From positions 1-38,499 of IMG/VR virus record IMGVR_UViG_3300025896_000072: DNA of 38,499 nt; one strand, given 5' to 3'. The position numbers and the translations under genes were made by a program. How positions within the stretch are numbered: the first letter of the stretch is position 1; the number at the start of each line of letters is the position of its first letter. This DNA is from a virus. A model generated the notes under the pieces. The model had not been told where the DNA came from, did no database searches, and saw only the letters and a list, made by a program, of their open reading frames with translations. Positions 1 through 38,499 of this stretch are shown here, one piece after another.

Positions 1-359
1 GATTGTTTATTGAAAAATACTGAAATGTTTTCTTGTTTTTTAAGTGGTCTTTTATTTGCTAATTGAAATCAGGTTGAATTTGTTTTTTCCCATATCCAAT
101 CATACTTATACTGCTTTATATTACTCATACGGAGGGCAGAACTAAAAGGCTCACTTCCAAATAGTACAATAGCTCCATTAGGTTTTATTATTCTTTTTAG
201 TTGTTCCCACATAGACTCAAAAGGTATTACTGTATCCCACTTGCAAGCTGTAGTTCCATACGGAGGATCTGTTATTATACAATCTATACTCCCATCAGGG
301 ATTCTTTTCATAATATCAAGACAATCTCCGAGTAGTGCTGTTCAGTTTTTTATTTGCAT
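1..359 (-). CDS. DNA methyltransferase, N-terminal part (runs off left edge)
   Basis: This is the first part of an amino-directed DNA methyltransferase (N6-adenine or N4-cytosine), which transfers a methyl group from SAM to phage DNA. The ATG is at 357-359. The protein begins MQIKNGTALLGDC and has the catalytic DPPY motif at about residues 31-34. With the standard code it would stop at the TGA at 69-71. Read as glycine, the frame continues through NSTGFQLANKRPLKKQE, a conserved block of the family, and leaves the window open. The SAM-binding FxGxG motif is absent here but is present in the fragment at the right edge (38210-38499). In this group of enzymes DPPY precedes FxGxG, so the two pieces fit one gene. 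It probably protects phage DNA from host restriction (inference). Confidence 0.9.
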
Positions 360-433
360 AATTATATTTTATAGAATTAAATGAAATTATTTGAGGTTTT
401 GAAATCGTACCGCCTTGGCATGTCTCACATTAT

Positions 434-961
434 CTATGTTTGTACTCTTTTCCAAAAGTATCATCATGCATGTTGCAATCTTCACAAACAGCATGCGGAA
501 ATGCTACTATTTGGCACTCAAGTCATCCTTGATGCTTCTCTTATGCTTCAAAATATTCAAATTATTTCTCAATCAAATAACTCTTGTTGTACTTTTAAGC
601 TAAGGTGATTTAATCATCAAGATCATACATTGCTCAATCAATTTTTAAAGGCATGTTGTATATTCTCGCTTGATGTACACCACTCAAGATTATCCACATG
701 GTTGTTGGTCTTGTCTCCATCAATGTGGTTTACTTGAGGTTTATTCTCCGGATTTGGTATAAAGGCTTGTGCAACAAGGCGGTGGATACTAAAACATTTT
801 CATTTTATGTGAATAAATAAATATCAATTTCGCAATGTTTTACTTTCAAAAATTCTCTCCTTTCAAGTTCACCTATAATTGATATTTTTAAAAGTTCATC
901 TATCTCAAATAAGGTAATTACTCGGAAATCAATTTGCTTGTTTAAAATTTTCTAAAAACAT
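434..961 (-). CDS. HNH homing endonuclease with NUMOD4 and NUMOD1 domains
   Basis: Free-standing homing endonuclease, 175 aa, which cuts DNA lacking its own gene so that repair copies it in. It has an N-terminal NUMOD4-like part (NGYLFIHIKGK), the core [17 protein letters not shown] followed by [18 protein letters not shown] with the HNH residues, and a C-terminal NUMOD1 DNA-binding module ([17 protein letters not shown], then AGGYFWKRV). I count about 18 in-frame TGA codons, and they sit on the family's conserved glycines. This makes it one of the best proofs of the TGA=Gly code. It starts 5 bases after the endolysin stop codon. A 115-bp core is nearly identical to the gene at 5216-5731, while the flanks differ. 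Confidence 0.92.
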
Positions 962-966
962 ATATT

Positions 967-1629
967 TTATTGTAATCATGTAAACCTTGCAACAAGTGGT
1001 AACCTTTTATTATATGCATAAAATGTACTTTTTATCCTACCTTTCCGGATCGCATCATTCCATACTCCAATGCAATAATCAATTTGCTTGTATGGGCTTT
1101 GGAAATCCTTGGAAAACCCGGCCTTGAGATTGTAACCATTGGCAAAAATAAACTTTCCATGCCATTGGCCATTGAGTTGGCAAATACCATAATCGTAATA
1201 TCCATTTGCTCCAACCACTCCACTCCGGCGGTCCCACTTCCACAATCCATTTTCTCACTCGAGAGTGAGCAAGAAATCTTTGCCACCTTTTTTGTAGGCA
1301 TAATTTACAATGTTTTGGATCTCATCGGTTGCCGGCCAACCTTTCTTGATGATCCTTTGAGGATCCTTTGGTGGTGGTGCAACTGTTTCCTTTTTGGAAA
1401 CAACTGGTTTTGGTGCGGATACTTTCGGTGTTGCCGGCTTTGGTGATGGCTTCACCTCAATTGGTTTCTCGATCGGTTGGATCTCGGGTGCAATCTTGGT
1501 GGCCTCTTTGATCGCCGGTACTGTATCAATGGTTGCAACAACCAATGGTTTTTCATCGCTTTTCGGTAAGTAATCAAGGGAAAAATATATGATCACAAGG
1601 ACCATAATGGAAAGTGTGTATTTATTCAT
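967..1629 (-). CDS. Membrane-anchored lysozyme/transglycosylase-like endolysin
   Basis: Predicted peptidoglycan-degrading lysis enzyme, 220 aa. Residues about 5-20 form one hydrophobic segment (signal anchor or signal-arrest-release). Residues about 50-90 are a proline/lysine-rich linker, and residues about 100-220 form a lysozyme-like SLT domain with the block LLTLEGENGLW, whose glutamate (E124 or E126) would be catalytic, followed by YYDYGICQLN. A TGA inside LEGENG and another at 976-978 would truncate the protein in the standard code. It overlaps the upstream membrane/coiled-coil gene by 8 bases, forming a lysis cassette. The N-terminal anchor suggests that export does not need a holin (inference). 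Confidence 0.85.
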
Positions 1630-1978
1630 TTGATCATGTTAGTGATAAAGTGTTGGCATACTCAAGCATCTCATTTCTGATTTGCGAGTTTATGGCCTCA
1701 ATCTCTTTTACATTTTTTACACTTCCATCAAGTTTGCTTTGTAGCTCATTGATTTGGTTTCTCAAAATCTTTTGATCCTCAAGACTTTTCCCGATAATCA
1801 CAAGGTTGTTTTGCTGTTTTTCAACAAGCACATCCATTTGTGATTTTCCTTGGGGTTTCGTAATCTCCATTGCTTTCCCTGCTATGAGGGCAACAAGGAT
1901 GATGATTGCGATAGTATAGAGGATCTTGTTTTTGTGATTCTTGATCACCTGCCCGATAGGCATATTTGTATTTTGCAT
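1622..1978 (-). CDS. Single-pass membrane protein with coiled coil, lysis-associated
   Basis: Protein of 118 aa with one strong transmembrane segment (about residues 19-36, ILYTIAIIILVALIAG). It is followed by a charged region rich in heptad-like leucine, isoleucine and glutamine that is likely coiled coil. The frame passes a TGA at 1634-1636 and ends at TAA 1622-1624, overlapping the endolysin start. Position and topology (short cytoplasmic N-terminus, one helix, outside coiled coil) resemble an inner-membrane spanin, and a pinholin-like role is also possible. No family was recognised. Confidence 0.75.
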
Positions 1979-2002
1979 GGTATTGGTATTTTTAAAGAAT
2001 AT

Positions 2003-2212
2003 TTATTTTTTTGGTAACAGGTCGAGTCAAAGATTATCTTTGATTTTTTTGAGGCTTTGGATGCTGATTTTTCCCCTATTTCTGAATTTATAAAGGGTAC
2101 TTTCTGTGAGATCCGCTTTGGCGGTGAGTTCCTTTATTGTCAAAAGGTTTTCTTTTTTGTATCTCACAATTTTTTGATCCATTGCCTTGGTGTATTCAAT
2201 GCCTTTGATCAT
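2003..2212 (-). CDS. Small HTH (XRE-like) regulator
   Basis: DNA-binding protein of 69 aa with a Cro/CI-type helix-turn-helix. The segment LLTIKELTAKADLTESTLYKF matches the scaffold of helix 2, turn and recognition helix, and SIQSLKKIKDNLGLDL matches the closing helix. A TGA at 2027-2029 is read as glycine in that last block. I chose the ATG at 2210-2212; an in-frame GTG at 2240-2242 lies almost on the predicted transcription start. It is the first gene behind the promoter at 2249-2297, whose 11-bp repeats could be its own operator (inference). It may control the early promoters that share these repeats. Confidence 0.75.
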
Positions 2213-2248
2213 TTGGTGAATTGTTAAAAAATAAATCGGCACATGGGA

Positions 2249-3613: not shown

Positions 3614-4051
3614 TTAAATTTCCTCAAAATGCTCCACCCAAGCCTTGGCATCCTCCCAACCATAGGCGATACATGCCATGATATTATCAAGGGCCGATAA
3701 ACTCGCCACCCATGCCTTTTGCTCATCACTCACCGCACTTGGTGAGGCTCCAAGCTCTCAATTTTTCTTGATTTTCCTTTGTCTCTTGAGTTCTATGAAA
3801 AGTAATGATCACCGCTTGAGGATGATGCAAAAATCCGGAAATCAAGGGCTTGTACCCATCCTCTTTTTTTTGGCCATCATTTGGATGATGTTGGCGGTGC
3901 CTTTTTGGCCACTCTCATTGGCAATATGTGTAAACTTGTATTGCTTGTATCGCAACCATGTGGCAAGGCTTTCCGCCTCAATGTCCTCAATCGGGATCTC
4001 TTGGTTTATTTCGCTCATAAATCGGGTAATGGTGAAAGTGTATTTTCTCAT
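3614..4051 (-). CDS. VRR-NUC domain nuclease
   Basis: Small nuclease of the VRR-NUC branch of the PD-(D/E)XK superfamily, 145 aa. The active-site signature is clear: GTSPGFPDF with the aspartate at about residue 73, then FIELKR (E87, K89), then SDEQKAWV. The glycine of SPGFPDF is a TGA, and two more TGAs follow. The start may instead be the ATG at 4016-4018; the one given overlaps the SET gene by 46 bases. Phage VRR-NUC proteins are thought to act in recombination or replication fork processing. Confidence 0.88.
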
Positions 4052-4425
4052 GATTTTTTGATCCCCATGATCTTGAGGTTTCAATATGTTTGGAAATGCG
4101 GTTGGTATCCGTAATCAAAAACAAGCTCATCACCGGCCTCAATATCATTGATGGCTTCAAGGCCAATGTTGCCATCCTTATCCATTATAATGATCATATT
4201 TGGATCATTTGAGTGGTTGTAAAGACTCCCATTGCCAAGCAAGATCAATGCATCTCAATCCTCACCTCGGGATCCAAACCAATAATCATTGATGATCGTA
4301 TCCTTGAGGATATTGATTTGCTCTTTCGGGATGGTGATATATTGGCAAACCTCAATAATATCATGGATCTTGTATGGTTTATCCGCAAAGACACACCGGC
4401 CTTTCTGTACTGTATTGATTATCAT
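4006..4425 (-). CDS. SET-domain protein (putative lysine methyltransferase)
   Basis: Compact SET-domain protein of 139 aa; the family transfers a methyl group from SAM to lysine side chains. The N-terminal block is KGRCVFADKPYKIHDIIE. The SAM/lysine core motif is LLGNGSLYNHSNDPN (NHS at about residues 70-72), followed by AINDIEAGDELVFDYGY (residues about 91-107). These are the three signatures of the fold, in the correct order and spacing. TGA glycines occur in GEDGDA and after the core. The leader is TTTTTTAATTTTTACAC before the ATG. The substrate is unknown; a host or phage protein is possible. Confidence 0.85.
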
Positions 4426-5215: not shown

Positions 5216-5731
5216 TTATGAAATAAATTGCCAACCATATCATCAAGCGGATTTCCTTTTTCAGTAACAAACCTTTGATATATCCGCTTTTGATATTCAA
5301 GTTGCTTTTTCTCAATCTGTTATGCAATCAAATATTTTTGTATTTCAATCTTTAAAATATTGTATAACTTTCTTTGAATTATGATGCAATGATCATTTTT
5401 TTCATTTCATGAAATTCATTTTTTGAAATCATCAAATATTTTTTAAAACTCGGTATGAGTGTATTTGGTTTTCTGTTACTGTACACCACTCAAGATTATC
5501 CACATGGTTGTTGGTCTTGTCTCCATCAATATGATTTACTTGGGGTTTATTCTCCGGATTTGGTATAAAGGCTTGTGCAACAAGGCGGTGGATATAAAAG
5601 ATTTTCTTTTTTCATGATATTGATAATCATACTTGCATATATCAATTTTTACCAAGTATTGGTTTTATATATTGGCATAGTCAATTATCGGTGTCTTTGA
5701 ATATTTCACCGGTATTAAATATCTTATACAT
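5216..5731 (-). CDS. HNH homing endonuclease with NUMOD domains (second copy)
   Basis: Free-standing homing endonuclease, 171 aa. It starts [17 protein letters not shown] and has KNGYMQVGLSISGKKK leading into the same HNH core as the gene at 434-961 (IHRLVAQAF, then [18 protein letters not shown]). It ends in a different NUMOD1 module ([17 protein letters not shown], then SAGGYGWQF). About 14 TGA codons are used, including the tandem pair in AGGY. The core differs from the other copy at only 3 of 115 bases, all silent. It sits between two phage genes with short spacers, so it is an insertion that does not break a neighbour. Confidence 0.92.
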
Positions 5732-5742
5732 CGGGTATCAAA

Positions 5743-6405
5743 TTATTTGTATCATAAAATGTCATCGTTTACAATATATTGCACATAGCTTGGCAACTGC
5801 TTGGTTTGGTAATCCTCAAAATGAGTATCATTATGGATCTTTCCAATAAAAACTCTTTCCTTGCTCAATATTCTTTGCCCTGTGGTTGATTTTACCACAT
5901 AAAACCTTGCAACCTCCCACTCACCTTTCAAAAACTCGTATATCCGCTTTTGTGGCACTCCATAGGTGCCATTTTTTATCTTTCGGCCATCCGGTGTCTC
6001 CTCTCGATATAAGAGGCCAAAATTTGCAATCTTATTCAAGATGGTGTACTCGGTATGAGTGAGGTTGAGATCTCGGATTTTCACAATGTTGGTATGCACT
6101 CCGGTTTCTTTCTCGATCTCGCAAACATGATCAAGGATTTTTTGTAATGGTGGTATGAAAAGTTTTGAAAAAGAAACCTTGAGGTATTTTATTTCCGATC
6201 CGCAACAATCATAAATGGTTGTTTCTCACTTTTCCATGTCGGTAACATGGCCATCCTCATCAATAGTGATGCTTGGATTTTTCTTGTGGATCTTGATTTG
6301 CTCATCAATCCACTCTTGGATGTGCAACATGGTATCACCTTGCAAATATGCATTGTGGTACTCCTCGGCGATTTCTCGGGCGAGTTCGTATTTTGTCTTA
6401 TTCAT
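5743..6405 (-). CDS. Hypothetical protein (220 aa)
   Basis: No family was recognised. The protein is soluble with a helical N-terminal half (KYELAREIAEEYHNAYLQGD), a short cysteine pair (YDCCGSEI) and a C-terminal half that looks like a winged-helix or small alpha/beta domain (HTEYTILNKIANFGLLYREE). TGA codons are few (near the middle and just before the end). It overlaps the upstream gene by 8 bases. The C-terminal half alone is an open frame in the standard code, which would mislead an annotator about its start. Confidence 0.7.
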
Positions 6406-7871: not shown

Positions 7872-8231
7872 TTACCAAGTAAAATATCTATGATACCATC
7901 TTCGCTTGCTTCGTGTTTTTACTGATATATAAAAACTTTGTTCGTTATAAGGTGCTATATTTAGTGCTTCATATCAATCGAGGAATAACTCAGCGGATAT
8001 ATTTGCTTTTCGCCTATTGCATTCTGTACAGGCGAGAACAGTATTGCAATATGTTTGCTCTTTGTATTCGAGTGATTTAAGTGAACACTTCGGTATTATG
8101 TGGTCTACTGTAGCTTTTTTAAGTGCATTTACTCCGGTTCTCTTATCTGAAAATGGTTGTAAGCAATAAAAACATCGTCAATTTTGCTTTCTGTATAGCC
8201 TTTCCCACTTGTATTTATTGATTGTTGGCAT
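7872..8231 (-). CDS. HNH endonuclease with zinc-binding cysteines
   Basis: HNH nuclease of 119 aa, of the zinc-stabilised type. Paired cysteines C20/C23 (GRCFYC) and C68/C71 (LACTECNRRK) frame the active-site block ATVDHIIPKC (D43-H44). The asparagine/lysine line CNRRKAN closes the motif. Unlike the other two HNH genes it lacks NUMOD domains. It overlaps the upstream gene by 17 bases. It could be a homing enzyme or a packaging-associated HNH; its place far from the terminase favours homing. Confidence 0.85.
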
Positions 8232-8472: not shown

Positions 8473-9207
8473 TTAGAACACTCACCGCTTTGGTTGCTCT
8501 GTTTTTTGGTAGTTTTCTTTTTTTCTACTCATCCAAGTGGCAAACCTCCTTTTTATTTCAAATGTTGGCTCCCTTTCTGCTCGTATTTTTCATGTTTTCC
8601 CTTTTTCTGTCCAATAGGCTATAAATGCGATCCAATCATTTTTGTAACTCTCGGCATATTCCGGTACTTGGATATTATCAAGAGTCTGTTTTTTTAGAAA
8701 TAAAATTGATTCTGTATATTCGTTTGGTTGCACCGCAACAACTGTATCTGTATTTTCTTTTAATTTCCTTTCCTTTCCTTTCCTTTCCTTTCCTTGTTCA
8801 ACACTTGTTCAATTTTGTTCAACACTTGTTGTTTTTTGCCTTGCCAATGCGGATTTTTTTCCGGCCTCACTTCGCTTTTCTGATAACTCCTCTCTATATT
8901 TCTTGTTTTCAATTACCCTTTTTGAGAATATAAAACCATCATCATCCAAGCAAAATAATTCACTTGATATAAATATGTTCAACAAGTGTTCAACAAATGG
9001 CTCTCACTTGTTTTCATGGCTTGAGTACCATTTTATATAGTCCTCATACTGCTCATACTTTATTTTTCAAGATTCTTGTTGATGCATAAGCTCAATCAAT
9101 ATCCAATACAATCCGATTCCGGCAAGTCATGTTTTCATAAATACCGTCATGATCTTTGGATCATTGTGTGCATTATTGTCGTGCGGAAAATAAAACGATT
9201 CTTTCAT
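8473..9207 (-). CDS. DUF4373-like replication initiation protein
   Basis: Protein of 244 aa. The N-terminal domain (about 1-110) matches the phage DUF4373/Lin1244-type start: SFYFPHDNNAHNDPKIM, then GLAGIGLYWILIELMHQQ. A lysine-rich linker follows, partly coded by six tandem GGAAA units (8764-8793). The C-terminal part (about 175-244) is basic and ends KRGVF. Such proteins are taken as replisome organisers or DnaD-like initiators. It stands near RecT and the RecB-like nuclease, which supports a replication role. At least six TGA glycines are used. Confidence 0.75.
8764..8793. repeat. Pentanucleotide microsatellite (TTTCC)6 within a gene
   Basis: Six perfect copies of TTTCC (GGAAA on the coding strand) code the linker GKERKGKERK of the replication protein. 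The unit is not a multiple of three, so loss or gain of one copy would shift the frame. Confidence 0.9.
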
Positions 9208-9494: not shown

Positions 9495-10802
9495 CTATAA
9501 AGCAACTACATCATCGGCGGTATATGCCGGTGACTCCTCGGGCTTGAATTGTGCCATCCAATCTTGGTATACTGCAATGCCTCCATCAAAAGATGCATCA
9601 AAGATATTTGGCATGAAGTCCTCACCATCAACAATCAACTCATACAGTCTCTTGGTAGTTTGGTGATAAAACACCTCCCACATCGCAAGCAAGTATGGTT
9701 TTTCCACAAAGTTGATTACATACTCATACACCACCGGATTGAGGGAAATGATACCCTTGGCCATGAGGGCATCCGTCATGAGGGCATTGGTCATGTACTT
9801 GCCCTTGTTTCCGGTTTCCCAATCAATGCCATGTAATCCACAAAGTTCTCTCAACTCCGCTTGTTGCATGTATGGTGGCTTTGCCTCGGATGGTTGGATC
9901 TCGATAAACAATGCCTTGATCGGTTTTTTTCCAAATGCTGTCATGCATCCAAAAAAGTATGTTGTGCCTTGCATATCGTAATCCGGCTTGATGCTCGTAT
10001 CATCCGATAATTTTCCTTTAAATTTCCAATCCACAATAATGAGATCACTATTTTCATCCTCAAAGAGTGCATCAATAATGAATTTCAAAGGCACCTCAAG
10101 GATCTCACCGGAAAGATCGGCCACCGGTATTGTCCTTTCAAACTCGGCACCAATGAATTTCCAACCTTTCACTCTCGGATACACTTGAGAAAACCAATTG
10201 GAAATACCATACTCAATCCCCTCAAAGATCCCCTCCATTGTCCCGGTCTTTCACCAATTGATGAAATCATCAAGTTTCTCATCTTTGGCCTTGTGTTTTT
10301 CAATGGCCTTTTTGATCTTTGTCTCGATCTTTGTTGCCTCCTTCTTGGCGGTTTTCATGGTGTCCACATCGGTGGCGGTGATCGCCTTGATCTCATCCAT
10401 CTTTGCTCGGTACTCATCCACAAGTTTGTGTATGTCCTCATATCATCAAAACTCAATCATCTTGGTGCTTGTCCAAAATGCCTCGTGTTTTCGATACTTG
10501 GCAATGTACTCATTTTTTGCATAGTCCTTGGCAATCTTTACAACCTTTGCCACTACAAACTCCGGATCCTTTTCAAAGAGTTCCTTATTGTCCGGATCTC
10601 CATAAAATCACTCAACCCCATGATGGCATGATTTTCCAATGATGGTGGCCAAGTAAATTGTATTGTCCCACTCATAATTGATGTAATGTTTCAAAAACAA
10701 TGCCTCATTATTTCTCAACTCTTTCATTGATGAAAACGAAAGGTAATTGATACCGCTTGCAACGATCTGTTGCCCCATCTCTATCCTGCTCAAAGGTAAC
10801 AT
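9495..10802 (-). CDS. RecB-like PD-(D/E)XK nuclease
   Basis: Phage exonuclease of the RecB/Cas4-like PD-(D/E)XK type, 435 aa. It pairs with the RecT-like gene directly upstream for recombination by resection and annealing. The conserved histidine region is GKSCHHGVE (about residues 57-64). The catalytic D244 and D258-W-K260 lie in IIDALFEDENSDLIIVDWKF, followed by the QGTTYFFG helix. Several TGA glycines (for example EFGGYED, NWGKTGT) join what would otherwise be three fragments. The start ATG is at 10800-10802 with a TTTTTACTTTTTAC leader, and the stop is TAG 9495-9497. Confidence 0.88.
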
Positions 10803-10830: not shown

Positions 10831-11853
10831 TTAGTACACTATTTTTTCCATCGCCTTGGTGATCTTGGCAACAAACTCATTGGCCTGCTCAACTGTAAGC
10901 TCTGTTGTGGTATCAACTCAATAGTATTGATTCATGGTTGCCTTTCGCTTTCTTTCGCTATCCTCAAAATTCCATTTACTCTTTTCCGCAAATTCTTTCC
11001 ACTTCATTTGCACTTGCTTCACCTTATTTGCCGGCAATTTTCCTTGTGGTGCATCGGGTGCATCACCGGCCGGTAAATCCACCACATCCGGTGCAATCTC
11101 TCAACCTTGGCCACTTTCTGTGATTTTCTCAAGCATTTCCGCACCTTTGGCGGTTGCCTCGATCCCATCATCATACTTTGGTGCATCGGCGGTTGGTGTT
11201 GGATCAACTGTTTGTGCCGGTGTTTCTGTTTTTACTTCCGGTGCTTTCGTATCCGGTGCATCATCATCAACCGGTACCTCCTCAAACTGTGCATCCATCA
11301 CATCCTTTTCACCGGTCTTGGTGATTTCCTCGGCAAGATATGGTAATGCACCAAGCTCACTCGGGAAACAAAGGCGGAAACCTTGGCCAATTACAACCTT
11401 TTTGATCATAAACTCGGGCATCTCGGCCCAATTCTTTACCAAGACTTTCTTTTTTTGTACTGCATCATATCGCATCTTGGCAAATTCACTCAATGATGCA
11501 TCCCATTCAAATGGATTGTCCCAACCTCGGCGGTGGATGATCACCCTTGCCCCTGTAAGTTCTCCGGCCTCATTTCGTAATGTCTCAACTTTCCATCCGT
11601 TCAAAAGTCCGGTGGCATTGGCTTTATCAATATATACTTGGTATCCGGTGATGATTGAGAAATTATCACCATATCCAACCGCATATATTTCCCTCTTGAA
11701 AGGGTTGAGGTTGTTTACCCTCGCAATGTTGAGGAAAAGATTTTGTTGCTTTTCGGTGATCGGATCCTTGAGGCCAAAGAGGTAATCCCTCAAGCTCTGA
11801 TCATCAACAAGTGCAACCGCCTGTGATTGTCCGGGTACAATATCTTTTTGCAT
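10831..11853 (-). CDS. recT: RecT-family ssDNA-annealing protein
   Basis: Single-strand annealing recombinase of 340 aa. Family blocks seen are LNPFKREIYAVGYGD, then SIITGYQVYIDKANATG, and the later EFMIKKVVIGQGFRLCFPSE. The second third is followed by an acidic, proline-rich linker and a basic C-terminal helix (KWKEFAEKSKWNFEDSERKR). A TGA at 11101-11103 would cut off the last 90 residues in the standard code. It is the first gene behind promoter P3, and the RecB-like nuclease follows 28 bases after its stop codon, the usual operon for phage recombination. Confidence 0.92.
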
Positions 11854-12024: not shown

Positions 12025-13068
12025 TTAAAGGAAATCTCGGCCGATAATCTCGGCAACCTGTTTTCTCGAGAGGATCGGTGCGGAAATTCCAATGTTTCTC
12101 ATCACCGCTTTTGTGAAAATATCGGCAATGGTTGCATCGGTGGCAATCACTCTTTGGTTGTACACTCATTGCATACTCTGCCATTTTCCCCGGATAATTT
12201 GGCGGTCAATATGTCGGGCCACCATATATACCATGATCCGGCGATCATCCGCAAAACCAAGCCCTCTTTTAAACATCTTTGCAATTTCTGATGGTGTAGC
12301 AACTTGATCCGGGTTGCTCTCATTCCAAATCTTTGCCTCAAATGCTTTTTGTAAATAAAGAGTCCGGCGATTTTCTCGGGCCTTGATCACTTTCTCAAGT
12401 TCGGTTGTAAGTGCAAACTCATAGCGAGAAAAGAAATGCTTTATTTCACTATACCGGATCCAAAATTGGCCAATACCTCCCCAAGAGTTTGGTGAGAAAA
12501 ACCCACCTTTGTATCCATCCGAAAAAGTATGCTCATCATCATACCCGGTGATTGCGAATATGTGGCCACCCTGCTTGGTGGTTTTATTCCATTCCTTTGA
12601 TGTTTTGATGGCCTGCCAATCGGCAAGTTTTACACCGGTTGCAATCCCTTTCCCTCCGGCGATAATCATTTTCATTTTATCAACATTTGTGCCTCCACCT
12701 GTATCAATTCTCACATAGGCACCAATGTGGCCAAGATCCTTGAGTAATTGTAATGCCGATTGAAACAACCACCCGGTTTTGTCTCATGCACCCCTCTTTT
12801 TTGCCTCATCCCACACATCCCAAGGATTGTATGGTTGGTAATAATTTTCTTTTGCTCTTTGTGCAAAGGTTTCATTATATGCCATTGATGATCCAAAAAC
12901 AGTACATGCACCAATGCTCCCTTGGTTGAGTCAAGGTGCAATGTCGAGTATTACCCGGCTTGGTATTTCCCCCATCCCTGTTTCCTCAAAAACCTCATCA
13001 TGTGTAAGGTCTCGAGAATCCGGAAGATCCACCGCAAAATCATATTTTTCCAAATTGATATTTTCCAT
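12025..13068 (-). CDS. Papain-like (C1A) cysteine peptidase
   Basis: Cysteine peptidase of the papain fold, 347 aa. All four active-site elements are present and in order: Q49 and C55 in PGLNQGSIGACTVFGSS, H169 in GGHIFAITGYDDEH, and N194 in SPNSWGGIGQFWIRYSEI. The oxyanion-hole glutamine lies six residues before the cysteine, as in papain. No signal peptide is seen, so it may act in the cell or be carried in the particle. A helical C-terminal domain (about 215-347) is of unknown role. TGA glycines occur just before the Q-C block and near the C-terminus. It follows the tail fibre and the PLA2-like gene, which suggests host attack or processing of tail proteins. Confidence 0.85.
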
Positions 13069-23406: not shown

Positions 23407-23410
23407 AGGA

Positions 23411-23968
23411 TTATACGATTAAAGGATTAAAAGGTTTGTAATTGTCCAAAGTTTCTCGGAAAGATACCCCGATTCCTCCGGCCATCTCATCCTTGGAAAA
23501 ATATGTTTTGCTCAATGTCTCGATCTGTTTTGACTTGATGTTTGACTCATTACCGGATGCCGGTGTATTGTCCCAAATGTCCTTGCACACCTCAAGGCAT
23601 GCTTGCTCCACATCGGCAATGTCCTCAAGATCCACATATCCCCCGGTGTATTCCACAAACAATGTGGCCTCAACCGATTCTTTGAGGTAAATGATATTGC
23701 CATCTTTTCGAGAGTATGGCACATCCGCACCATTCTCATCATCAATCTTGAGTTTGGTAATGGCGGTGAGTGGTCCATTGGCAACAATGATAATATCCTC
23801 ACCATCAACCACAAAATACTCTGTATATGTCTTTTCCTCGAGATTCCGGCCCAAGTATTTATCAAATTGCTTGGTGCATCTTGAGATCACCTTGGTGAGT
23901 GTAGTATCAAGGGTTGTGCCTGTTACTCCCAAGTATCCCTTTAATGTTTCAAGTGTTGTGTATTCCAT
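23411..23968 (-). CDS. Head-tail connector (gp6-like)
   Basis: Protein of 185 aa, TGA-free. It starts MEYTTLETLKGYLGVTGTTL with a helical start typical of gp6/gp15 connectors, TKVISRCTKQFDKYLGRNLE, a beta middle ending in LFVEYTGGYVDLEDI, and a helical C-terminus (DVEQACLEVCKDIWDN). These form the ring below the portal. The leader is the canonical TAACTTTTTACTTCC. Confidence 0.85.
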   Translation of the reverse strand: MEYTTLETLKGYLGVTGTTLDTTLTKVISRCTKQFDKYLGRNLEEKTYTEYFVVDGEDIIIVANGPLTAITKLKIDDENGADVPYSRKDGNIIYLKESVEATLFVEYTGGYVDLEDIADVEQACLEVCKDIWDNTPASGNESNIKSKQIETLSKTYFSKDEMAGGIGVSFRETLDNYKPFNPLIV

Positions 23969-26487: not shown

Positions 26488-27654
26488 TTACTTGACTTTC
26501 ACATTTTTGAGGATTCCGGTCATTTCTGCATTTTCAACTTGGAAGTCGAGACGCATTGTGATCACAAAATCTGTTGCTCTTTCCTTTGGTACTCGATCCG
26601 GCTCGATCGTAATATCTCGTTGGATACCATAGATAAAGTTGTAATCCGGTGTAAGAAGTACATCCGCACCATCAAGGGTTGTTTCCTTGACTGTATTCTC
26701 TGTTGAGAGAGTGTGGTTGTATCCAAATGGGATTGCATCGGTGAGTACAAGGTGTGTTGCATCCGTAACAGTATCAATTGTTGTGGAAAATTCCTTGTCC
26801 TGTCCAAGTGCGAGAGTGACAACATCACCTGCGGTTGCATTGGTTGTGCTTGCAACTGTGATATTTACCGCTCCGGCAACTGGTGATGCTGTAAGAGTTG
26901 TATTGAGTCCACCGGTTTTGAATACTGGGCGATCAATGCTCATTATGTTGGCCTTTGTAAAGTCCACACCAAATGCACCATACTTGTTTACAGTATTATT
27001 TGATGCCTCATACTTCACCTCGTAATCAATAGCAACATCATCCGGCATATACCATTTGTTGAGTACATTGCGGTATTTTGTGTCTATGCTCTTGCGAAGT
27101 TTTGCAAGTTTTTCTTTGTCGATATAACGATCTGCAAAGAGTACGGTGTTTGATGCATCAACAACCACTCCGGCTGTTTCAACTGCTTTCACAAAACCAT
27201 CAAACATTTGAAGAAGATCCGCCGGATTGGCAACCTTTCGAGAGTAAAGACCAACTCTTTCAAGCTGATTTGAAACTTTCTTGGCAATCATTTTCATCAT
27301 GTGTTCTTTGAAAGCCACACCCTCAATGTTGTCCTCGATTTCGTCATCATAGATACGGACCTCACCAATAACCTCTTGAGAAGTAAGTGTGATTTTGTCC
27401 GGTGTTGCCTCTGTTCGCTTGTTTGTGTCAAGTGCCTGTCCTCGCTGTGCCGGATAAAGGATCTTATCGGAAATACCGATTTTTCCAATTACCTTGCTTG
27501 GTGTATCCATACGGACCACACGAGAAGATTTGAGAATTACACTTTCATCAACTACATAGTCAATGAATTTGTCCGCCTGTGCTGTATTAAGGTGTACAAG
27601 TGTTGATTGCCCATCACCTGTAAACGCTTTTGCAATTTTTTGTGCCTTATCCAT
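26488..27654 (-). CDS. Major capsid protein
   Basis: Shell subunit of 388 aa, HK97-fold by position and pattern. It starts MDKAQKIAKAFTGDGQSTLV; EVIGEVRIYDDEIEDNIEG resembles the spine and P-domain region, and YMPDDVAIDYEVKYEASNN the A-domain side. Residues about 245-320 (LTASPVAGAVNITVASTTNA, ATHLVLTDAIPFGY) form an inserted beta domain like an Ig-type surface domain. It contains no in-frame TGA at all, in contrast to most genes here. The terminator follows at once. Scaffold and maturation genes lie upstream in the normal order. Confidence 0.88.
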   Translation of the reverse strand: MDKAQKIAKAFTGDGQSTLVHLNTAQADKFIDYVVDESVILKSSRVVRMDTPSKVIGKIGISDKILYPAQRGQALDTNKRTEATPDKITLTSQEVIGEVRIYDDEIEDNIEGVAFKEHMMKMIAKKVSNQLERVGLYSRKVANPADLLQMFDGFVKAVETAGVVVDASNTVLFADRYIDKEKLAKLRKSIDTKYRNVLNKWYMPDDVAIDYEVKYEASNNTVNKYGAFGVDFTKANIMSIDRPVFKTGGLNTTLTASPVAGAVNITVASTTNATAGDVVTLALGQDKEFSTTIDTVTDATHLVLTDAIPFGYNHTLSTENTVKETTLDGADVLLTPDYNFIYGIQRDITIEPDRVPKERATDFVITMRLDFQVENAEMTGILKNVKVK

Positions 27655-28220: not shown

Positions 28221-28868
28221 TTATACTGCTTTTTCGTACTTCTTTGATATTCTTTCGAGCTTTCGCAATAGCTCGGTTTTGATCTCATCGTATACCTCGG
28301 CACCAAAACTCACCTTTCCGGAAAATGTGGAAACTCCGGCAATGTCTTGATCCTTATTATAGGAAAGTGATATGTGTGGCTTGTATCCCTCGTAATCCCA
28401 TGATGCACCACCATCAATATATTTTTTCCACCCTTTCTCGAGATCCTTTGACTCAAACATTATCACAATGGCATCACCAAGTTTCTCAATGGTTGCACTT
28501 TCCAAGGTGATCTCAAGATCCTTTGTATCGGGTGTGAAATCCTGCCATACCACTTTCTTTTTGGAAAAGGCAATGGTTGTGTGCATCTCCTCCGGCTTCA
28601 CAAGATCCATTATGCCTTGATCCTCGGCCCATTTCAAGATCTTCTTGGCATTGGTGACACCTCGGGATACATAGAGGGTTTTTTTATCGTATTTCTTTGA
28701 AATATTCTCAAGTTTTGTGAGATTATCGGCGGAAAGTTTTGGTTTATTGTCACCAAATACCATCTTGAAAATGGAAAATGTGGTTTCGGCTTTTGGTACT
28801 GCCGGCCTTTTTCCTCGGGATATGAGTGATATTTTATCAACAAAAACATCTTTGATTGAGAATGCCAT
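28221..28868 (-). CDS. 2H phosphoesterase-like protein with XkdF-like start
   Basis: Protein of 215 aa. Two His-x-Thr/Ser motifs, MHTTIAFS (H96, T98) and KPHISLSY (H165, S167), are the signature of 2H phosphoesterases, which open cyclic or 2'-5' nucleotide bonds. The N-terminal block DKISLISRGKRPAVPKAE resembles the first part of XkdF-like capsid proteins. It stands between XkdF and scaffold. The anti-CBASS phage protein Acb1 is a 2H enzyme, so a role against cyclic-nucleotide defence is possible (inference). I chose the ATG at 28866-28868. TGA-free. Confidence 0.65.
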   Translation of the reverse strand: MAFSIKDVFVDKISLISRGKRPAVPKAETTFSIFKMVFGDNKPKLSADNLTKLENISKKYDKKTLYVSRGVTNAKKILKWAEDQGIMDLVKPEEMHTTIAFSKKKVVWQDFTPDTKDLEITLESATIEKLGDAIVIMFESKDLEKGWKKYIDGGASWDYEGYKPHISLSYNKDQDIAGVSTFSGKVSFGAEVYDEIKTELLRKLERISKKYEKAV

Positions 28869-29254: not shown

Positions 29255-29812
29255 CTATCCTTTTGAAATTTCCTCTCTTTGTCCAACACCCTCAATGGAT
29301 ATACCCACAAACTCGCCATCTTGGATCTTTTGGTATGTTTCATCATCAAACTTGATGCCAACCACCCATGATCCCTTTGGTATTGTCTCAAGGCCAACCG
29401 GTATGGTCACCGGTGCAACAAAGCTCTCCACAAACTCGGCGGTTTGTATATCGGTGTCCTTTTCATGGTCCACATTTACACTTTTTTTGCTCAAGTTTCT
29501 CACAAAATCATGTGCGGTCTTGGTGATCTCCTCCTCGGTGATAATATCGCCATTGCGGTCAATCTCGAAAGGTACAAGGGCCACAAAGAGTACAGTATTA
29601 AAACCATTATCGGTTTTGATGATTTGCATTTTTGATGATGTTTTTTCGATCTTGCTTTTTTCTTGCTCGATCTCTCGGCCTTGCATCTCGGCACTTGTCT
29701 TGGCACTCTCTCGGCTTTCTTGATCACCAAAAATATATGTGTAGCATGTGCCACCATCACCATATTTGTATCATGGCTCACCATTGATCCGGCATGCTTG
29801 TATCTTATCCAT
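29255..29812 (-). CDS. XkdF-like prohead protease
   Basis: Putative capsid maturation protease of the XkdF type, 185 aa. It starts MDKIQACRINGEPGYKYGDG (the glycine in EPGYKYG is TGA), the family opening. The core has FEIDRNGDIITEEEITKTAH, VNVDHEKDTD with the active-site histidine region, FVESFVAP, IPKGSWVVGIKF and EFVGISIEGVGQR with the putative catalytic serine. It lies upstream of scaffold and capsid genes as expected. Confidence 0.82.
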
Positions 29813-30128: not shown

Positions 30129-31754
30129 TTATTGGATAAAGTCATGCCCTATGTTGGTATAAAATTCTTTCATAGCTCGGTGAGTCTTTGGCAAGAATTT
30201 CTCAATGAGTGGATTACCAACCCAAAATGTTTCATTGAGGTGTGCAAAATATTCTTGTGCTTGATTCTCGGTGATCCTCGCTTGGCCATGTCGGAAAAGT
30301 CCCATTGAGTTTTTGTAATAGCTCTTGCCATGCCCCCAACCAACTGTTGCCTCCTTGGTCAATGCTCCAAGAGTATCCATAAATCATGCAATATCTTGTG
30401 TTAATTCCTCGGATGTGGCAATGTGAGTGTATTGCCGGCCGGCCACTTCTTTCACACTCTCGGTGATCTTGTATGCGGTGACTGCATCAAGGTCCCTATA
30501 TTTATCAAGGATGCTTTTTGCGATCTTTCCAATGTGGCTTGTAGGGTGAAACAATGCCCTCAACTCTTTATCCTTGATCAACTCTTTTACCTCATCAACA
30601 CTATCCTTGAAAAGCCCTTTGAATACTCCAAATTTTTGATCATCCGGCATCACCACTCTTGTGAAAAACATGTGGCCAACCTCATGTGCCTCCACCACTT
30701 GGTGCTTGTATGTTGTGGCTCAACTCGCCTTTTCTCCAAGGTTGATTTTGTCACCCCTCCGCATGTAATATGCACGCCCCTTTGGCTCAATGTAATTGGC
30801 CTTGAAACCAATGGCATTGAAATATCTTGCCGGCAATATCTTGCTTGAGTATTGATCATAATTATCCGGTTTCATGCCATCATCCCATTGGCCATCCTCG
30901 GGTATGTATGATTGCTCCTTGTCCACATCGGTGGCATTCTCGGCGGTGATGTTTTCCCCATCATCCCTTGGATCAAATAGGCGGTATACAGTATTACACC
31001 GGCATCATACATGCCTCAATGGTTTCATGTGGCCACTTGGAAACTCTTGATCATAAGGGATCCACCCTTTATCATCATTTTCAAGGCATTCCGGTGTGGT
31101 TTTATCATCTCGGTGTGATACCCACTTTTTCCACCCTCTTTGGCCAAAATTCCTTGTGTATCTTGCAAACTGTCGATCCTTTCCATTCAAGTATGCATCA
31201 CCGATCTCTTGGCTCGCAATGAGTCTTGCCCGATAATCTGAAAATGCGAAATCTCGCTTTAATTCGTTTGCAAGTTTCATGTATCACCACCCTTTCTCAA
31301 GCCCTTGGGAAACCAAGTTGTTGATTTGCTTTTTTGAGTAATCATCAATGCCTTTTATTTTCGATCCTGCAAACTCATTGGCATACTTGAGTGCATCGGC
31401 CGGATCAACACTAAAAGTGCCGGTGACTCGTATATCCTTTTTAAAGGATTTGTTGAGTTGCTTGGCACCTATATTGAAACCCTCGGTAAGCATCTTTGAG
31501 TATTCATCAAAATCCTTGTTGGAAATATCCTTGGTGATAAATTGCTTTTGATCAATAAAGAGATCATTATATTTTACCTCGGTATTTTTTGCAAGATCAT
31601 CCAACACTTGTTGATACCATCGGCCAAGCATTCTTGAGATCGTTTTTATATACTTTTCTTGCAAATCAATCAACTGTTTACCGCCAAGGTTGTATAATTT
31701 CTTGGTTTCCTTGCTAATTTTTAGCTTGTAAATTGCCGAGTAAATCATTTTCAA
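30129..31754 (-). CDS. MuF-type head protein fused to a zinc-peptidase-like domain
   Basis: Protein of 541 aa. Residues 1-260 are the Mu F/SPP1 gp7-like minor head domain: GLEKGWGYMKLANELKRDF, RARLIASQEIGDAYLNG, and the end motif RHVGCRC. The rest is an extra domain with the zinc-binding pattern AHEVGHMFF (HExxH, residues 357-361) and a likely third ligand in QAQEYFAHLNE (about residue 501). Four TGA glycines join five fragments, two of them at conserved glycines of the MuF part. MuF fusions to polymorphic toxin domains are known in other phages. It may be injected with the DNA. It overlaps the portal gene by 41 bases. Confidence 0.82.
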
Positions 31755-33039
31755 GATCGGTTAAGTTTTTATAAAAATGGCCTGCCTCTCCTTTCATAAG
31801 CTCGGTGAGATTGTCTTTTTGGACCTGTTGTGAGTCCACCGCCAATACATCACCACCATCAATCTTGCCAAGCCCCAATTTTTCTCTCACTTCATTGGCT
31901 GTCATGATTCCGGCTTTCTTATATCCGGCCAATACCTCCATTTGCTCCTTTTCATCGGTGGTATCAATCCACTCATATTCGAGATCATCCACCTTGTACC
32001 CCTCGGCAAAGAGGATCTTGAAATCCTTGAGGTTTTGTGCTTGTGCCGGTGCTATGGTAAAGCTGTTGAAAGTCTCCATGCTCACTTGGCTTGATGCTCG
32101 GTTGCTGTTATCTGATAGCAACATATCGTATGGAACATTGAGAGCAATGGCCACCGATTGCAAGAGTTGTGTGCGGTACTCAATGAAAGCCTTGGCATCA
32201 ATATCATGCTCAAGATCCAATTGGCCAACCTCTTGATCAACAATGGCGGTTGAGTATGCCTTTTCCACCCCTTTCATTTTCGCCTCAAGAAATGCTTTTA
32301 ATACTTTCTTATCCTCAACACCAAAAACCTTTTTTTCATTCTTTGGAAAGATCATTTTTGCCTTGATCATACCATTGGTAAATGCCTTGCTGTAATAGGT
32401 GTCAATTTGCTCCATGAGGATCAATTGATCAACCACCGCCTCAAAGTATGATGCCCCATAATACTTGGTTGATAGTGAGGTATTCTTGAAATGGTACACT
32501 TGGTTGAGGTTTGGATTATACCCACATCCATGCCCTGTATTTTTCAACTCCTTTGCACCGGCTTTGCTCTCGGTATATATCAAAGTTCTTGCGGTCCTGT
32601 CATCTTTCGGAGTAAAGGCATTGAAATATACCACATCCGTTCCAACCTGTTGGCGGTATCCATCACCATCCTCCATGATCTCGATTGTATGGGAAAGGAT
32701 AGGCAAAAGATCGGTTACTTTACCGGTTCCATCCTCGATCACCTCAAAAAAGGCATTACCCAAAAGCACCTTGTTTCGGCCAAGAAACTCTTGATCAATT
32801 TTATGGATCATCTCCAAGAGGCCTTCATCTTTACTCTTGAAACCGCTATTGATGGCGGTTGCGATCTTATCGGTGAGGCCGGCCACAACAAAACTATCAT
32901 AATACAATGCGGTGAGTGTCGAGAAAGGTATTGCCGGCGATCTTGTGCCAACTGTTTTAGTATTCTCCTTGGCCTGTTTTGAGTTGGGATTGTCTCACAC
33001 CTTTACAATCTCAACTGTGCTGTCCTCTTGCTTGCTCAT
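31714..33039 (-). CDS. Portal protein
   Basis: Portal subunit of 441 aa forming the DNA gate of the head. It starts MSKQEDSTVEIVKVGDNPNS; one TGA at 32995-32997 (GDN) hides the true N-terminus in the standard code. Family blocks are LGNAFFEVIEDGTGKVTDLL, VYHFKNTSLSTKYYGASYFE, ALNVPYDMLLSDNSNRASSQ and GIMTANEVREKLGLGKIDGG. Lies between terminase and MuF genes. Expressed from promoter L7. Confidence 0.92.
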
Positions 33040-33596: not shown

Positions 33597-35075
33597 TTAA
33601 ACCAACTCAACCCCACCACTACCGGCACCATTTTCAATCCAATCTTGTGCTTTGGTAAGTGCAAACACCAAGGCATCCATTTCATCATCATGCTCAACAT
33701 CCGGATATTGTGTGATCTGCTCAACCAATGTCTCTTGGCCATCCTTGAGAAAGTACACATCACCAACCTCAATTTGTCCGGCAACTCCAATCAACCTTGT
33801 GTATTTGTCTCTATGGCTCCAAATGGATTGTATGGGTAATCATCGGGCCTTGAGATCATCCGTCAATTTCACCTCCACATTGTCCTCTTTCACAATCACA
33901 TCCGGCTCAAAGCGATCATTGATATTGATAATGAATTGCTCAAGCTCTCTTGGTGCGAGCTTCACCCCTCGGGAAAATATCACATACTTTTTGTACTCTT
34001 TCACACCCAAAACACATAATCCGGTAAAATCATTTTGCTCCTTGGTCTTGGTGGCCGGATCAACTGCAAATACGATATAATCAAACTCAAGCGGTGGCAC
34101 ATAGTACCTTATCCAATGCTCCTTGATTACCTTATCGGCGGTATTAAGAGGGATGTTGCGAAACTCTTGATTGAAATAGGCGGTACCAATACCCTTTTTT
34201 CTCATTTCCTTTCCGGTCTTTGGATCGGTGAAGATCTTGCCATCTCGCCTCTCAATGAGTGCTTGTTTATTCCACATCTCTGGCCACAAGATGTTTTCAA
34301 AGTGATCATCACATGCTTGATATTCAATGGTTGGCCACTTTTTCTCATCTCTCAACTGTTTCACAAAACAAAGGTTTCCCACAATTGTGCCAAGGGCAAC
34401 CATCCGCCCTCATGGCAAAAGTACATTGTATAATGAGGTAAATGCCCACTCAAGAAACTCTCTTGCCATTGTTGGATTTTTTACATCCTTGTTATCCTGC
34501 GGATCATCCATGATGATTTCCCTTGGTCTCGCACCTCGGATCGGTTGGCCTCTCGTTACTGTTTCAATGTATGATCCATTCAAAAACTCAAGCTCCTTTT
34601 GTCTCCACTTATTCAACCTCTTATCCTTTTTGTCATCGGAGTTGGTTGGCACTATGTTTCCAAATATGCATTGGATCTTTTTGTTGATTTCCAACTCTCG
34701 GCGGATCTTACCCAATCCCTTTTCTCAAAGGTTTTTGGATGCCACATATACCATGCTCCATCCCGGGAAATATAAGATCCTCCACATCATGTATATCAAG
34801 AGGGCGGTGGTTTTCCCATGTCCTCGGGCAATGATAATGTTGAGGTCGTTTAATTCATCGGTGGTGAGTTTTGCCCATATTTCCTTGTGAAAGTGGGGGG
34901 TATTGATGAAACCATTTGGCCCTTGTTTCCAATGAGTAAAGTGATAATCAGAAAACCACCCAATGTCGTAAAATCAATGCCAATAAATGTACTCCTCAAG
35001 TACACCATCCGGCAAAACATCTTCATGTTTCTCAAGTTCCTTTATCTCTTGATATGTGAGTTTTTCATATCTCAT
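33597..35075 (-). CDS. terL: Terminase large subunit
   Basis: DNA-packaging motor of 492 aa. The ATPase has Walker A ARGHGKTT (residues about 83-90), Walker B REIIMDDP (D190-D191) and the coupling block LLPGGRMVALGTIVG, where the first glycine of GG is a TGA. The RNase-H-like nuclease has FAVDPAT (D339) and DVIVKEDN, and closes with HDDEMDALVFAL. Four TGA codons split it into four fragments in the standard code. The start ATG is at 35073-35075. It follows the small terminase gene after a 123-base gap. Confidence 0.95.
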
Positions 35076-37005: not shown

Positions 37006-37041
37006 ATTGGTAAAAGTGAAAAAATAAAGGTTTTCTCCGCA

Positions 37042-37143: not shown

Positions 37144-37153
37144 CTGTGAGAGG

Positions 37154-37378
37154 TTATGGATGGCCAAGGAACTTTCACTCAACACTCTGATTATCGCAAC
37201 CCTCACTTGGGATTACTGTCATCCCCTTGGCTTTCATCTCATCCAATGATGCGATCACCTCGGTGTGAGTGTGTCAAAACATGTCTTTGCAATGCTTGTT
37301 TTTTTGCCTTTGTGTGGCAAATGATTCCAATTTTTCCTCAAAGGATTGGATCGGGATGTGGATATGAAATGATGGCAT
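37154..37378 (-). CDS. Hypothetical protein (74 aa)
   Basis: Codes MPSFHIHIPIQSFEEKLESF, then a histidine/cysteine-rich part (KHCKDMFGHTHTEV) and a short alpha/beta end. Two TGA glycines. ATG 37376-37378, TAA 37154-37156. The histidines and cysteine could bind metal, but no family was recognised. Confidence 0.62.
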
Positions 37379-37387
37379 GGTATGAGA

Positions 37388-37579
37388 TTAAAAAACAACA
37401 TCGGGATTATACAACTTGAGTCTCAAGGATCACTTGAGGTATGTATAGGTGTCTTTTTCGCATTGCAATTGTATTTTCCTTTCCTGCATGGATACAACCT
37501 TGTAAATCGTATCTTGTAGACTCGGGATAAACTTTTGACTTGCAACACCCTCCTTGGAAATCATGGTAATCTTTACCAT
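37388..37579 (-). CDS. Hypothetical small protein (63 aa)
   Basis: Starts MVKITMISKEGVASQKFIPS and ends LKLYNPDVVF at TAA 37388-37390, the same PDVVF ending and following bases as the gene at 4955-5209, which hints at a common origin of the two 3' ends. Another frame is open over the same stretch, but this one ends where the next leader begins. The start codon lies in the palindrome CATGGTAA-TCT-TTACCATG (37562-37580), a possible operator or translation switch. Confidence 0.5.
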
Positions 37580-37601
37580 GCATCATACCTCGATTGATTG
37601 C

Positions 37602-37799
37602 CTATTTTCCATATCCGGGAAATTTACAATACTCCGGTGCATGTTCTTGATCGTATGCCCAACCATCACAAGCATACATCCTCATGTTGTCTTGTGTTTC
37701 CATCCATGCCCGGTAAGACATAACGGATGATATAAGTATCATTATGCTCATAATGAGGTTGATGATATTGAGGATGCGAGTGAGTTTTTTATATTGCAT
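37602..37799 (-). CDS. Small membrane protein (65 aa)
   Basis: First gene behind promoter P4. N-terminal hydrophobic helix (about 8-28, RILNIINLIMSIMILISSVM), then a soluble tail with two cysteines (YACDGWAYDQEHAPEYCKF). TGA-free. Probably anchored in the membrane with the tail on one side. Function unknown. Confidence 0.65.
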   Translation of the reverse strand: MQYKKLTRILNIINLIMSIMILISSVMSYRAWMETQDNMRMYACDGWAYDQEHAPEYCKFPGYGK

Positions 37800-37834
37800 G
37801 GTATAAAAAATTAAAGAATAAATCCAACAGAAAC

Positions 37835-37894
37835 AGTATATCACAATATTTTCTTTTTTCAAGTTTATTTATAGTTTTTTACACTTTATTGATT
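37835..37894 (-). promoter_or_regulatory. Early-type promoter P4 with phased repeats
   Basis: Minus strand: -35 TTGAAA (37857-37862), 16-bp spacer, -10 TATACT (37835-37840), identical over the whole spacer to P1. Upstream repeats: AGTTTATTTAT 37862-37872, a 10-bp AGTTTTTTAC 37873-37882 and ACTTTATTGAT 37883-37893 (plus-strand spelling). The 3' end of the zinc-ribbon gene overlaps the repeats. Confidence 0.8.
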
Positions 37895-38190
37895 CGATCG
37901 GATCCGCACTTGGCACAAACACAATGCTTGTTTTTCCCTCTCCATATAGAGTATATCAATCAAGGGATGATCATAAAGCACCACAAGATCAACTCAATCA
38001 AAATGGATCCTTTTGTGATGGTTTTTGGTGATCCCTCATGGAAACAATGAGTGCAAAACACCTTTTGGAAAAGTGCCGGTTTTACCTGCACTCACTTCCA
38101 CTTGTACTTTATATCTTGAAACTCATGGCAAAAGGTACACTTGATGGCATCATCATGCATCGCACCTCCGCAAAATTTGCATTTTTTCAT
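37879..38190 (-). CDS. Zinc-ribbon membrane protein (103 aa)
   Basis: Starts MKKCKFCGGAMHDDAIKCTF with two CxxC pairs, a second ribbon around FCTHCFHEG, then a hydrophobic hairpin (LIELILWCFMIIPGLIYSIW) whose glycine is a TGA, and a closing CVCAKCGSD. Eight or more cysteines are paired as zinc ligands on both sides of the membrane segment. The architecture resembles widespread small zinc-ribbon membrane proteins of bacteria and phages. Role unknown. Confidence 0.7.
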
Positions 38191-38209
38191 GGAAAAGTAA
38201 TAATAATGT

Positions 38210-38499
38210 TTAAATTCGATTTATTCAGATATTGTAGTAGTTTTCATCTTTCTCTATACATATCCATTTCCTGTTAGTGTTCTCACAAGCTACTGCTGTG
38301 GTGAAAGATCATGCAGTGAAGTCAAGGACTATTTCTCACTCGTTCGTGTAGGTTTTTATAAGGTATTCTATGAGTGCTACTGGTTTTTGTGTGCTATGTA
38401 TTTTTTCTTTATCATATCAGAACTTCAATATATTTGTTGGATAGTTTGTAAATTCTTGAATATACTCGTTTTTTCACATTTCACTCCAATTATCTCACA
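38210..38499 (-). CDS. DNA methyltransferase, C-terminal part (enters from right edge)
   Basis: The frame enters from the right edge as GDNWSEMGKNEYIQEF, then TNYPTNILKF, TQKPVALIEYLIKTYTNEG and the SAM-binding block VLDFTAGSFTTAVA, then RKWICIEKDENYYNIG and TAA 38210-38212. These are the C-terminal motifs of group-beta N6/N4 methyltransferases. The catalytic DPPY part is missing here and is present in 1-359. About six TGA glycines. If the ends are joined directly the frames are off by one base, so a few bases or a short stretch are missing at the junction. Confidence 0.88.

Follow-up and report, generated by a model that had tools for sequence, protein, structure and literature searches.

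Phages that share with their hosts the reading of TGA as glycine (genetic code 25) have already been reported for Absconditabacteria and Gracilibacteria (Liu et al. 2023, PMC10746230). In the sections of that study that bear on our subject, their genes are poorly readable in code 11 and prophages occur in code-25 genomes, as in the material presented here; TGA-dense phages are set against TGA-free, code-11-compatible ones, and code 25 is treated as one code, with no discussion of CGA or CGG in those parts. In the pertinent part of a second source, Absconditabacteria combine TGA as glycine with CGA and CGG as tryptophan, and Gracilibacteria vary for CGG (Shulgina & Eddy 2021, PMC8629427). In this study, we analysed IMG/VR virus record IMGVR_UViG_3300025896_000072, a stretch of 38,499 bases (hereafter the window, at its full length) that makes up most of a tailed, siphovirus-like phage genome. 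Judged from its alignments, the window would be a user of NCBI code 25, with TGA at glycine sites, CGA and CGG at arginine sites and TGG as tryptophan; table 25 is right for the window and wrong for its closest tryptophan-type relatives. We consider it highly probable that this phage is translated by a Gracilibacteria-class host with exactly these meanings and with UAA and UAG as stops, within a family whose members match the codes of their hosts.

Once TGA is taken as a sense codon, non-overlapping open reading frames (ORFs) of at least 100 codons cover 0.91 of the window instead of 0.63, their mean length rises from 177 to 268 codons, and minus-strand ORFs tile it. Reading through TAG gives a coverage of 0.70; reading through TAA brings it to 0.86, though the ORFs are then shorter (mean 200) and lie on both strands. 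TAA and TAG fit as the sole stops, although gene ends are such by construction of the calling and a gene ended by TGA could not have shown. The amino acid was deduced from codon-level alignments made with TGA and CGA/CGG masked, against 29 relatives (contigs and loci, including a few near-copies: L165 of L164 and G005 of G003, with L234 from the same contig as L161, and L237 apparently the G127 contig, L139; L165, G005 and L237 entered the codon-pair count along with their kin, L234 and L139 did not). Opposite the TGAs of the window, the 497 aligned cells hold TGA 177 times, GGN glycine codons 129 times, Asn 30, Ser 26, Ala 19 and others fewer, and neither tryptophan nor CGA/CGG a single time; in the 320 non-TGA cells, glycine reaches 40% against a background of 4%. 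Site by site, the commonest partner is glycine or TGA at 59 of 84 TGA sites, or at 41 of 75 with non-TGA codons only, and a consensus-site test, which left out the comparison of G003 with G005, gave Gly 19, Trp 0 and other 5 over 24 sites. This confirms the proposal of the first-pass annotation that TGA is glycine across the window: homologues mostly place TGA or glycine, and never tryptophan, opposite it, and in translation TGA does fall on the glycines singled out there (GFPDF, LLPGGR, EPGYKYG, HVGCRC, NSTGF and AGGY). The accompanying remark that almost every gene holds TGA was too strong, since 27 of the 38 genes called by codon score do so, by a caller that overlooked the HNH and fibre genes, which are rich in TGA.

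Reading TGA as tryptophan, the code 4 of Mycoplasma and certain phages, would yield TGA-sense ORFs alike to those of code 25, but the tryptophan-free cells contradict it, as do the Pfam scores. The VRR-NUC nuclease (3614..4084, minus strand, as are all genes located below; PF08774, with TGA in its GFPDF) scores 30.0 bits with glycine, 24.8 with alanine and 21.9 with tryptophan; the C-terminal part of a DNA methylase, truncated by the window end (38210..38497; PF01555), scores 79.9, 73.7 and 68.9 bits, respectively, and Terminase_6C 25.5 with either glycine or alanine and 24.1 with tryptophan. HNH_3 scores are nearly equal across readings (tryptophan and alanine differ by at most 0.1 bit), and an I-HmuI NUMOD-like domain in both HNH proteins is listed with glycine only (25.7 and 21.1 bits, both below the cut-off of 27). 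Glycine is first or tied first in all five proteins tested, and TGG has tryptophan at 55 of 64 consensus sites, in support of the earlier assignment of that codon. Thus, code 4 is so improbable as to be negligible.

A different possibility is a standard-code host in which the phage's own suppressor tRNA makes TGA sense, perhaps in late genes only. Suppressor-tRNA phages exist, as stated in part of the literature already cited (PMC10746230), and several head genes of the window are free of TGA. However, ARAGORN found no tRNA gene in the window (whose two ends may be separated by a short stretch of missing genome), Rfam gave no match there at gathering score, and none of the seven relative contigs scanned carries a tRNA gene, which bears out the first-pass view that the phage lacks a suppressor tRNA and relies on that of the host. 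Moreover, TGA occurs in late genes and also in early-type ones (RecT, exonuclease, replication), and prophages of the family lie in G115 and G131, genomes without a release factor 2 (RF2) match over cut-off. We regard a suppressor as very unlikely; late-gene regulation by recoding was dropped, as TGA is also found in early-type genes, and so was a tRNA pattern matched at 11 loci of viral contigs, mostly other tRNAs.

For CGA and CGG, the CGA/CGG codons of each contig were scored by the consensus residue among the remaining contigs, with CGA/CGG of the latter excluded. The window has 118 such codons over 41 ORFs (72 CGA and 46 CGG), and the 44 sites that could be scored gave R33, K9, W0 and other 2; among 838 cells opposite CGA/CGG codons of the window, arginine appears 390 times, lysine 146 and tryptophan 3. 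An Absconditabacterium host would agree with TGA as glycine, and close relatives such as G003 do fit CGA/CGG as tryptophan, yet in the window tryptophan stands at none of the 44 sites and all 118 codons would turn into that residue; such a host is highly improbable. The Absconditabacteria code, described for bacteria in the part of the source at hand (PMC8629427), fits the relatives G003, G362, G364, L239, L241 and G007 but not the window, which lacks its CGA/CGG meaning.

In fact, the relatives fall on two sides. Arginine-type members are G001 (R3 K1 W0 other 1), G361 (R8 W0), G365 (R10 K5 W1 other 3), G366 (R3 K1 W0 other 3) and a prophage in G115 (R7 W0 other 2); tryptophan-type members are G003 (W11 R0), G362 (W6 R0), G364 (W9 R0 other 8), L239 (W6 R0 other 2), L241 (W7 R0 K1 other 4), G007 (W4 R0 other 1) and G005 (W2 other 1). 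Mixed or poorly covered are G363 (W4 R2 other 1), L235 (R1 K1), L242 (W2 other 1), and L163 and L240 with one tryptophan site each, and no CGA/CGG site at arginine or tryptophan was found in G002, G006, L160, L162, L167 and a prophage in G131. The tryptophan reading could be an artefact, caused by tryptophan-to-arginine substitutions that arose by chance or by a handful of odd genes: TGG becomes CGG by one mutation, the counts per member are low, G363 is mixed, G364 and L241 have eight and four sites at other residues, and the arginine-type G365 shows one tryptophan site. Against this, G003 carries CGA/CGG at 18 of 97 window-Trp sites, in nine genes, together with TGG at 65 and other arginine codons at none, whereas at 247 window-Arg sites it has CGA/CGG nowhere and other arginine codons at 171 (Fisher p = 4.6e-10 vs the Trp sites). 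In addition, six contigs have 4-11 tryptophan sites and no arginine site, and CGA lies two changes away from TGG. An artefact therefore seems unlikely. The pairwise Trp-site test also reached p < 0.01 in L159 (in G362), L238 (in G364), L241, G005, L239 and L233 (in G363); it was not significant in G007, G002, L242, L240 and five of six arginine-type members, whose support is the absence of tryptophan. CGA/CGG is nearly purged from low-GC (guanine-cytosine) members, with four codons in G002, one in G006 and none in the fragment L162; two of the few in G002 stand at window-Trp sites.

How close are the two sides? IMG/VR holds G001, G002, G003 (33.8 kb) and G004 (99.98% identical to the window over 27.7 kb), plus more distant relatives, while among the matches in 50,697 annotated phage records (157 for the large terminase, TerL, and 190 for the capsid) none reaches at least 60% identity to the proteins of the window. 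In a concatenation of 15 proteins, identity to the window is 71% for both the arginine-type G001 and the tryptophan-type G003, and 70% for G002. Because such close relatives disagree on the meaning of CGA/CGG, a single virus family seems to have passed between hosts with different genetic codes. The concatenated tree sets the window, G001 and G003 apart from the other contigs with 100/100 support, with the order among the three not settled (33.8/64). A single origin of the tryptophan-type G003 and G362 was rejected (approximately unbiased (AU) test of the uniting tree, p = 4.5e-46), as was a tree joining G003, G362, G363 and G002 against the rest. Since the tree uniting G003 and G362 fails, the meaning of CGA/CGG would have changed at least twice in the phage family, unless recombination misleads the tree, which ignores mosaicism; single-gene trees leave many forks without resolution.

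Which hosts could supply such a code? We searched with the RNA polymerase motif NADFDGDQM, with TGA as its glycine, and obtained 39 loci, all under titles naming Gracilibacteria, SR1, Patescibacteria, Altimarinus or (uncultured) bacterium. One of these loci belongs to a class of 353 genomes, 315 of them with an rpoB match, most without TGA among the matches listed. In 17 genomes of the class, CGA/CGG stands at arginine in at least five sites and at tryptophan in none (e.g. G103 R48 K11 W0; G098 R35 K9 W0; G126 R28 K2 W0), and none of the 17 has RF2 over cut-off; of 37 genomes searched, five do, four with release-factor genes free of TGA and the fifth, G127, with genes of both kinds, so that it looks like a mixed bin. 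Where sites suffice, TGA is at glycine in 40 of 43 (G115), 38 of 41 (G120), 37 of 49 (G119) and 27 of 32 (G126). Among the genomes compared, the codon usage nearest to the core genes of the window is that of G091 (GC 0.38, TGA share of glycine codons 0.16, CGA/CGG as arginine); ten of the 12 nearest are among the 17, the others being G100 (arginine at two of three sites) and G110 (one site, at tryptophan). In the TGA-rich loci L061-L098, on the other hand, CGA/CGG is nearly absent, CGG sites being at tryptophan in 12 of 13 (one per locus, perhaps one shared column) and CGA sites scattering (tryptophan 2/9, arginine 0/9). The hosts are likely to be RF2-less kin of Gracilibacteria with CGA/CGG as arginine and a sparing use of TGA. 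The first-pass choice of Absconditabacteria or Gracilibacteria is thereby narrowed: Gracilibacteria-class genomes with CGA/CGG as arginine fit, and the published Absconditabacteria, with CGA/CGG as tryptophan, do not.

A distant prophage may link the family to this class. In a 740-kb contig of the genome G115, head and tail genes follow the same order as in the window, accompanied by RecT and a serine recombinase and bordered by cell genes, DNA ligase among them; CGA/CGG is arginine in the prophage and in its host (R17 K2 W0). A similar region occurs in G131, and G128 has a terminase at 46% identity. Several points weigh against the proposed host and code. The G115 prophage is distant, with head and tail genes at 22-39% identity; neither a CRISPR (clustered regularly interspaced short palindromic repeats) spacer nor a near-identical prophage ties the phage to a host in the 353 genomes, so the spacer comparison suggested by the first-pass annotation gave nothing convincing; the arginine reading of G001 draws on few sites; TGA meaning depends on at most two sites in eight of the 17 genomes, including G091, where one site only has TGA as glycine, which lowers our confidence; and host genomes may be incomplete, so that a missing RF2 could be a gap. 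For the spacer search, the window was compared in two pieces with the 353 genomes of one class, and its right part with 38 genomes. Matches at E <= 1e-4 span 28-96 base pairs (bp) and are short, degenerate or due to a pentamer repeat; a 97% match in G093 was rejected as a spacer, being a CTTTC-type pentamer repeat with no repeats around it. Scanning 36 match loci for at least three exact 20-mers 45-90 bases apart, with some weaker right-part matches lacking a locus left out, revealed no CRISPR array, only a low-complexity purine-rich repeat in L323. A terminase profile run against the genome contigs gave no relative, with none of 495 pattern matches confirmed. The replication gene of the window itself holds a CTTTC-type pentamer repeat (8764-8796) that produces false near-exact matches in other genomes.

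Taken mechanistically, host ribosomes would read UGA in phage mRNA as glycine, UAA and UAG as stop, UGG as tryptophan and CGA/CGG as arginine, with a host that would supply tRNA-Gly(UCA) and have no RF2; this host would belong to a Gracilibacteria-class lineage that spares TGA and has kept CGA/CGG as arginine. Each phage of the family would take the code of its own host, and others, one of them at 71% identity, would read CGA/CGG as tryptophan. In the part of that source concerned with them, the AGG-as-methionine assemblies are a parallel, two phages that follow a host sense-codon reassignment without their own tRNA for it, but with another codon and Bacilli as hosts, and with relatives on both sides of the change not described (PMC8629427).

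TGA use is graded. In 41 kept ORFs, TGA makes up 0.19 of the glycine codons of the window, an intermediate between the TGA-dense and TGA-free phages contrasted in part of the earlier report (PMC10746230), and the share ranges from 0/21 in the capsid gene to 18/19 in an HNH gene (434..979); the per-gene counts leave out two wrong-frame rows (3684-4084 and 23044-23408). Among phages the share rises from 0.19 (window) through 0.25 (G001) and 0.36 (G003) to 0.68 (G002), at a GC of 0.39, 0.39, 0.36 and 0.26, respectively; in the portal gene, the window has a single TGA, and four relatives have 2, 6, 15 and 18. Most head and tail genes contain little TGA, which is plentiful in two HNH-NUMOD homing endonuclease genes (434..979, 18 of 19 glycine codons; 5216..5755, 15 of 19; both PF13392 and weakly PF22083) and in a putative fibre or receptor-binding gene (14146..15465; role deduced from position, with no family match), in which TGA accounts for 29 of 58 glycine codons. 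These three are probably later arrivals from TGA-rich genomes. The fibre gene has no CGA/CGG among its 13 arginine codons and gives the impression of an origin in a phage with a different coding regime; it has a stretch of 133-165 residues in common with G001, G002 and G003. The two HNH-NUMOD genes have 133 bp in common at 95% identity, and G196, a genome without TGA in its rpoB, matches one of them at 80% DNA identity over 94 bp, for which reason such elements may cross code borders. In G365 (L331, L332), a 41-kb relative with TerL at 48%, the aligned parts of nine homologous genes contain no TGA, two of the nine having one just past the aligned part, perhaps a stop; with CGA/CGG at arginine sites, it is, to judge from its codons, a code-11-compatible member of the same phage family. 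G364 (L329, L330) and L241 place CGA/CGG at tryptophan sites with TGA shares of only 0.05 and 0.09; thus, usage of one recoding is not coupled to usage of the other.

The gene content is that of a siphovirus-like member of Caudoviricetes, with TerL, portal, major capsid protein, MuF, head protease, distal tail protein (Dit) and tape measure all present. The large terminase (33597..35075; phrog_38, E 4e-59, with support from the family alignment and codon pairs) has four TGA, and its CGA/CGG are read as arginine. It is followed by the portal protein (31714..33039; PF04860, E 3e-26; one TGA), a MuF-like head morphogenesis protein (30129..31748; PF04233, E 3e-12; four TGA, one preceding CRC), an XkdF-like head maturation protease (29255..29812; PF14550, E 1e-23; one TGA, in EPGYKYG) and the major capsid protein (26488..27654; phrog_1623, virion structural protein, E 8e-56, with relatives annotated as major capsid protein and an alignment in support; no TGA, five CGA). 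Among the head genes lies an Acb1-like anti-CBASS 2H phosphoesterase (28221..28868; PF23474, E 1e-31; no TGA), with relatives in G001 and G003, which suggests a defence of CBASS type (cyclic oligonucleotide-based antiphage signalling system) in the ultra-small hosts. The tail region has a head-tail adaptor (23411..23968; phrog_442, E 6e-20; no TGA), a tail terminator (22256..22636; phrog_347, E 2e-7), the tape measure protein (17649..20555; ten TGA vs 85 GGN), Dit (16694..17566; PF22768, phrog_33) and a weakly matched minor tail protein (15623..16678; phrog_1885, E 0.006; orthologues in G001, G002 and G003 at 57-64%). A putative, weakly matched cysteine peptidase (12025..13068; PF13529, E 0.006, below cut-off), RecT recombinase (10831..11853; PF03837, E 8e-23; two TGA), its exonuclease-like partner (9495..10802; phrog_1218, E 4e-8; four TGA), a Lin1244-like replication initiation protein (8473..9207; PF14297, E 4e-9; phrog_2562, E 3e-8) and an HNH endonuclease (7872..8231; PF01844, E 1e-7) follow. 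The N-terminal part of the methylase, truncated by the window start (1..359; PF01555), completes the gene that is split over both record ends, so the genome is probably nearly whole; no terminal repeat of 6-199 bases was found in the window, and the relatives G001 and G002, whose ends are repeated, measure 36.7 and 36.4 kb. G003 is also broken inside the methylase gene and G004 ends at most 12 bases from the window start; with all three breaking there, assemblies repeatedly stop in this gene. Shine-Dalgarno-like words (AGGAG, GGAGG, GAGG) are absent from all 35 regions upstream of gene starts, which have T-rich stretches instead.

Relative to the literature cited above, TGA-as-glycine phages are already known, and what appears to be new is the split in CGA/CGG meaning inside one phage family; titles and opening abstracts in open-licence PubMed Central returned no report of phages with CGA/CGG as tryptophan, or of a phage family astride a sense-codon change. 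It has been proposed that altering the genetic code protects against viruses. A stop-codon change can be evaded by avoiding the codon, and a sense-codon change spoils the proteins of a foreign phage at many places. A family with both readings at about 70% protein identity makes the crossing of this barrier, and codon-purged intermediates, testable. Both kinds of host could read the CGA/CGG-poor members G002, G006 and L162, which would offer a neutral bridge. On balance, we lean towards a family that has repeatedly moved between hosts with CGA/CGG as arginine (window, G001, G361, G366) and as tryptophan (G003, G362, G364), with the CGA/CGG-purged, low-GC members as the bridge, a viral codon capture. 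In practice, gene callers with plain table 25 would mistranslate tryptophan-type members, and the meaning of CGA/CGG helps to tell the kind of code-25 host for phages without spacer matches. Overall, sense-codon reassignment may slow virus traffic between these hosts rather than stop it.

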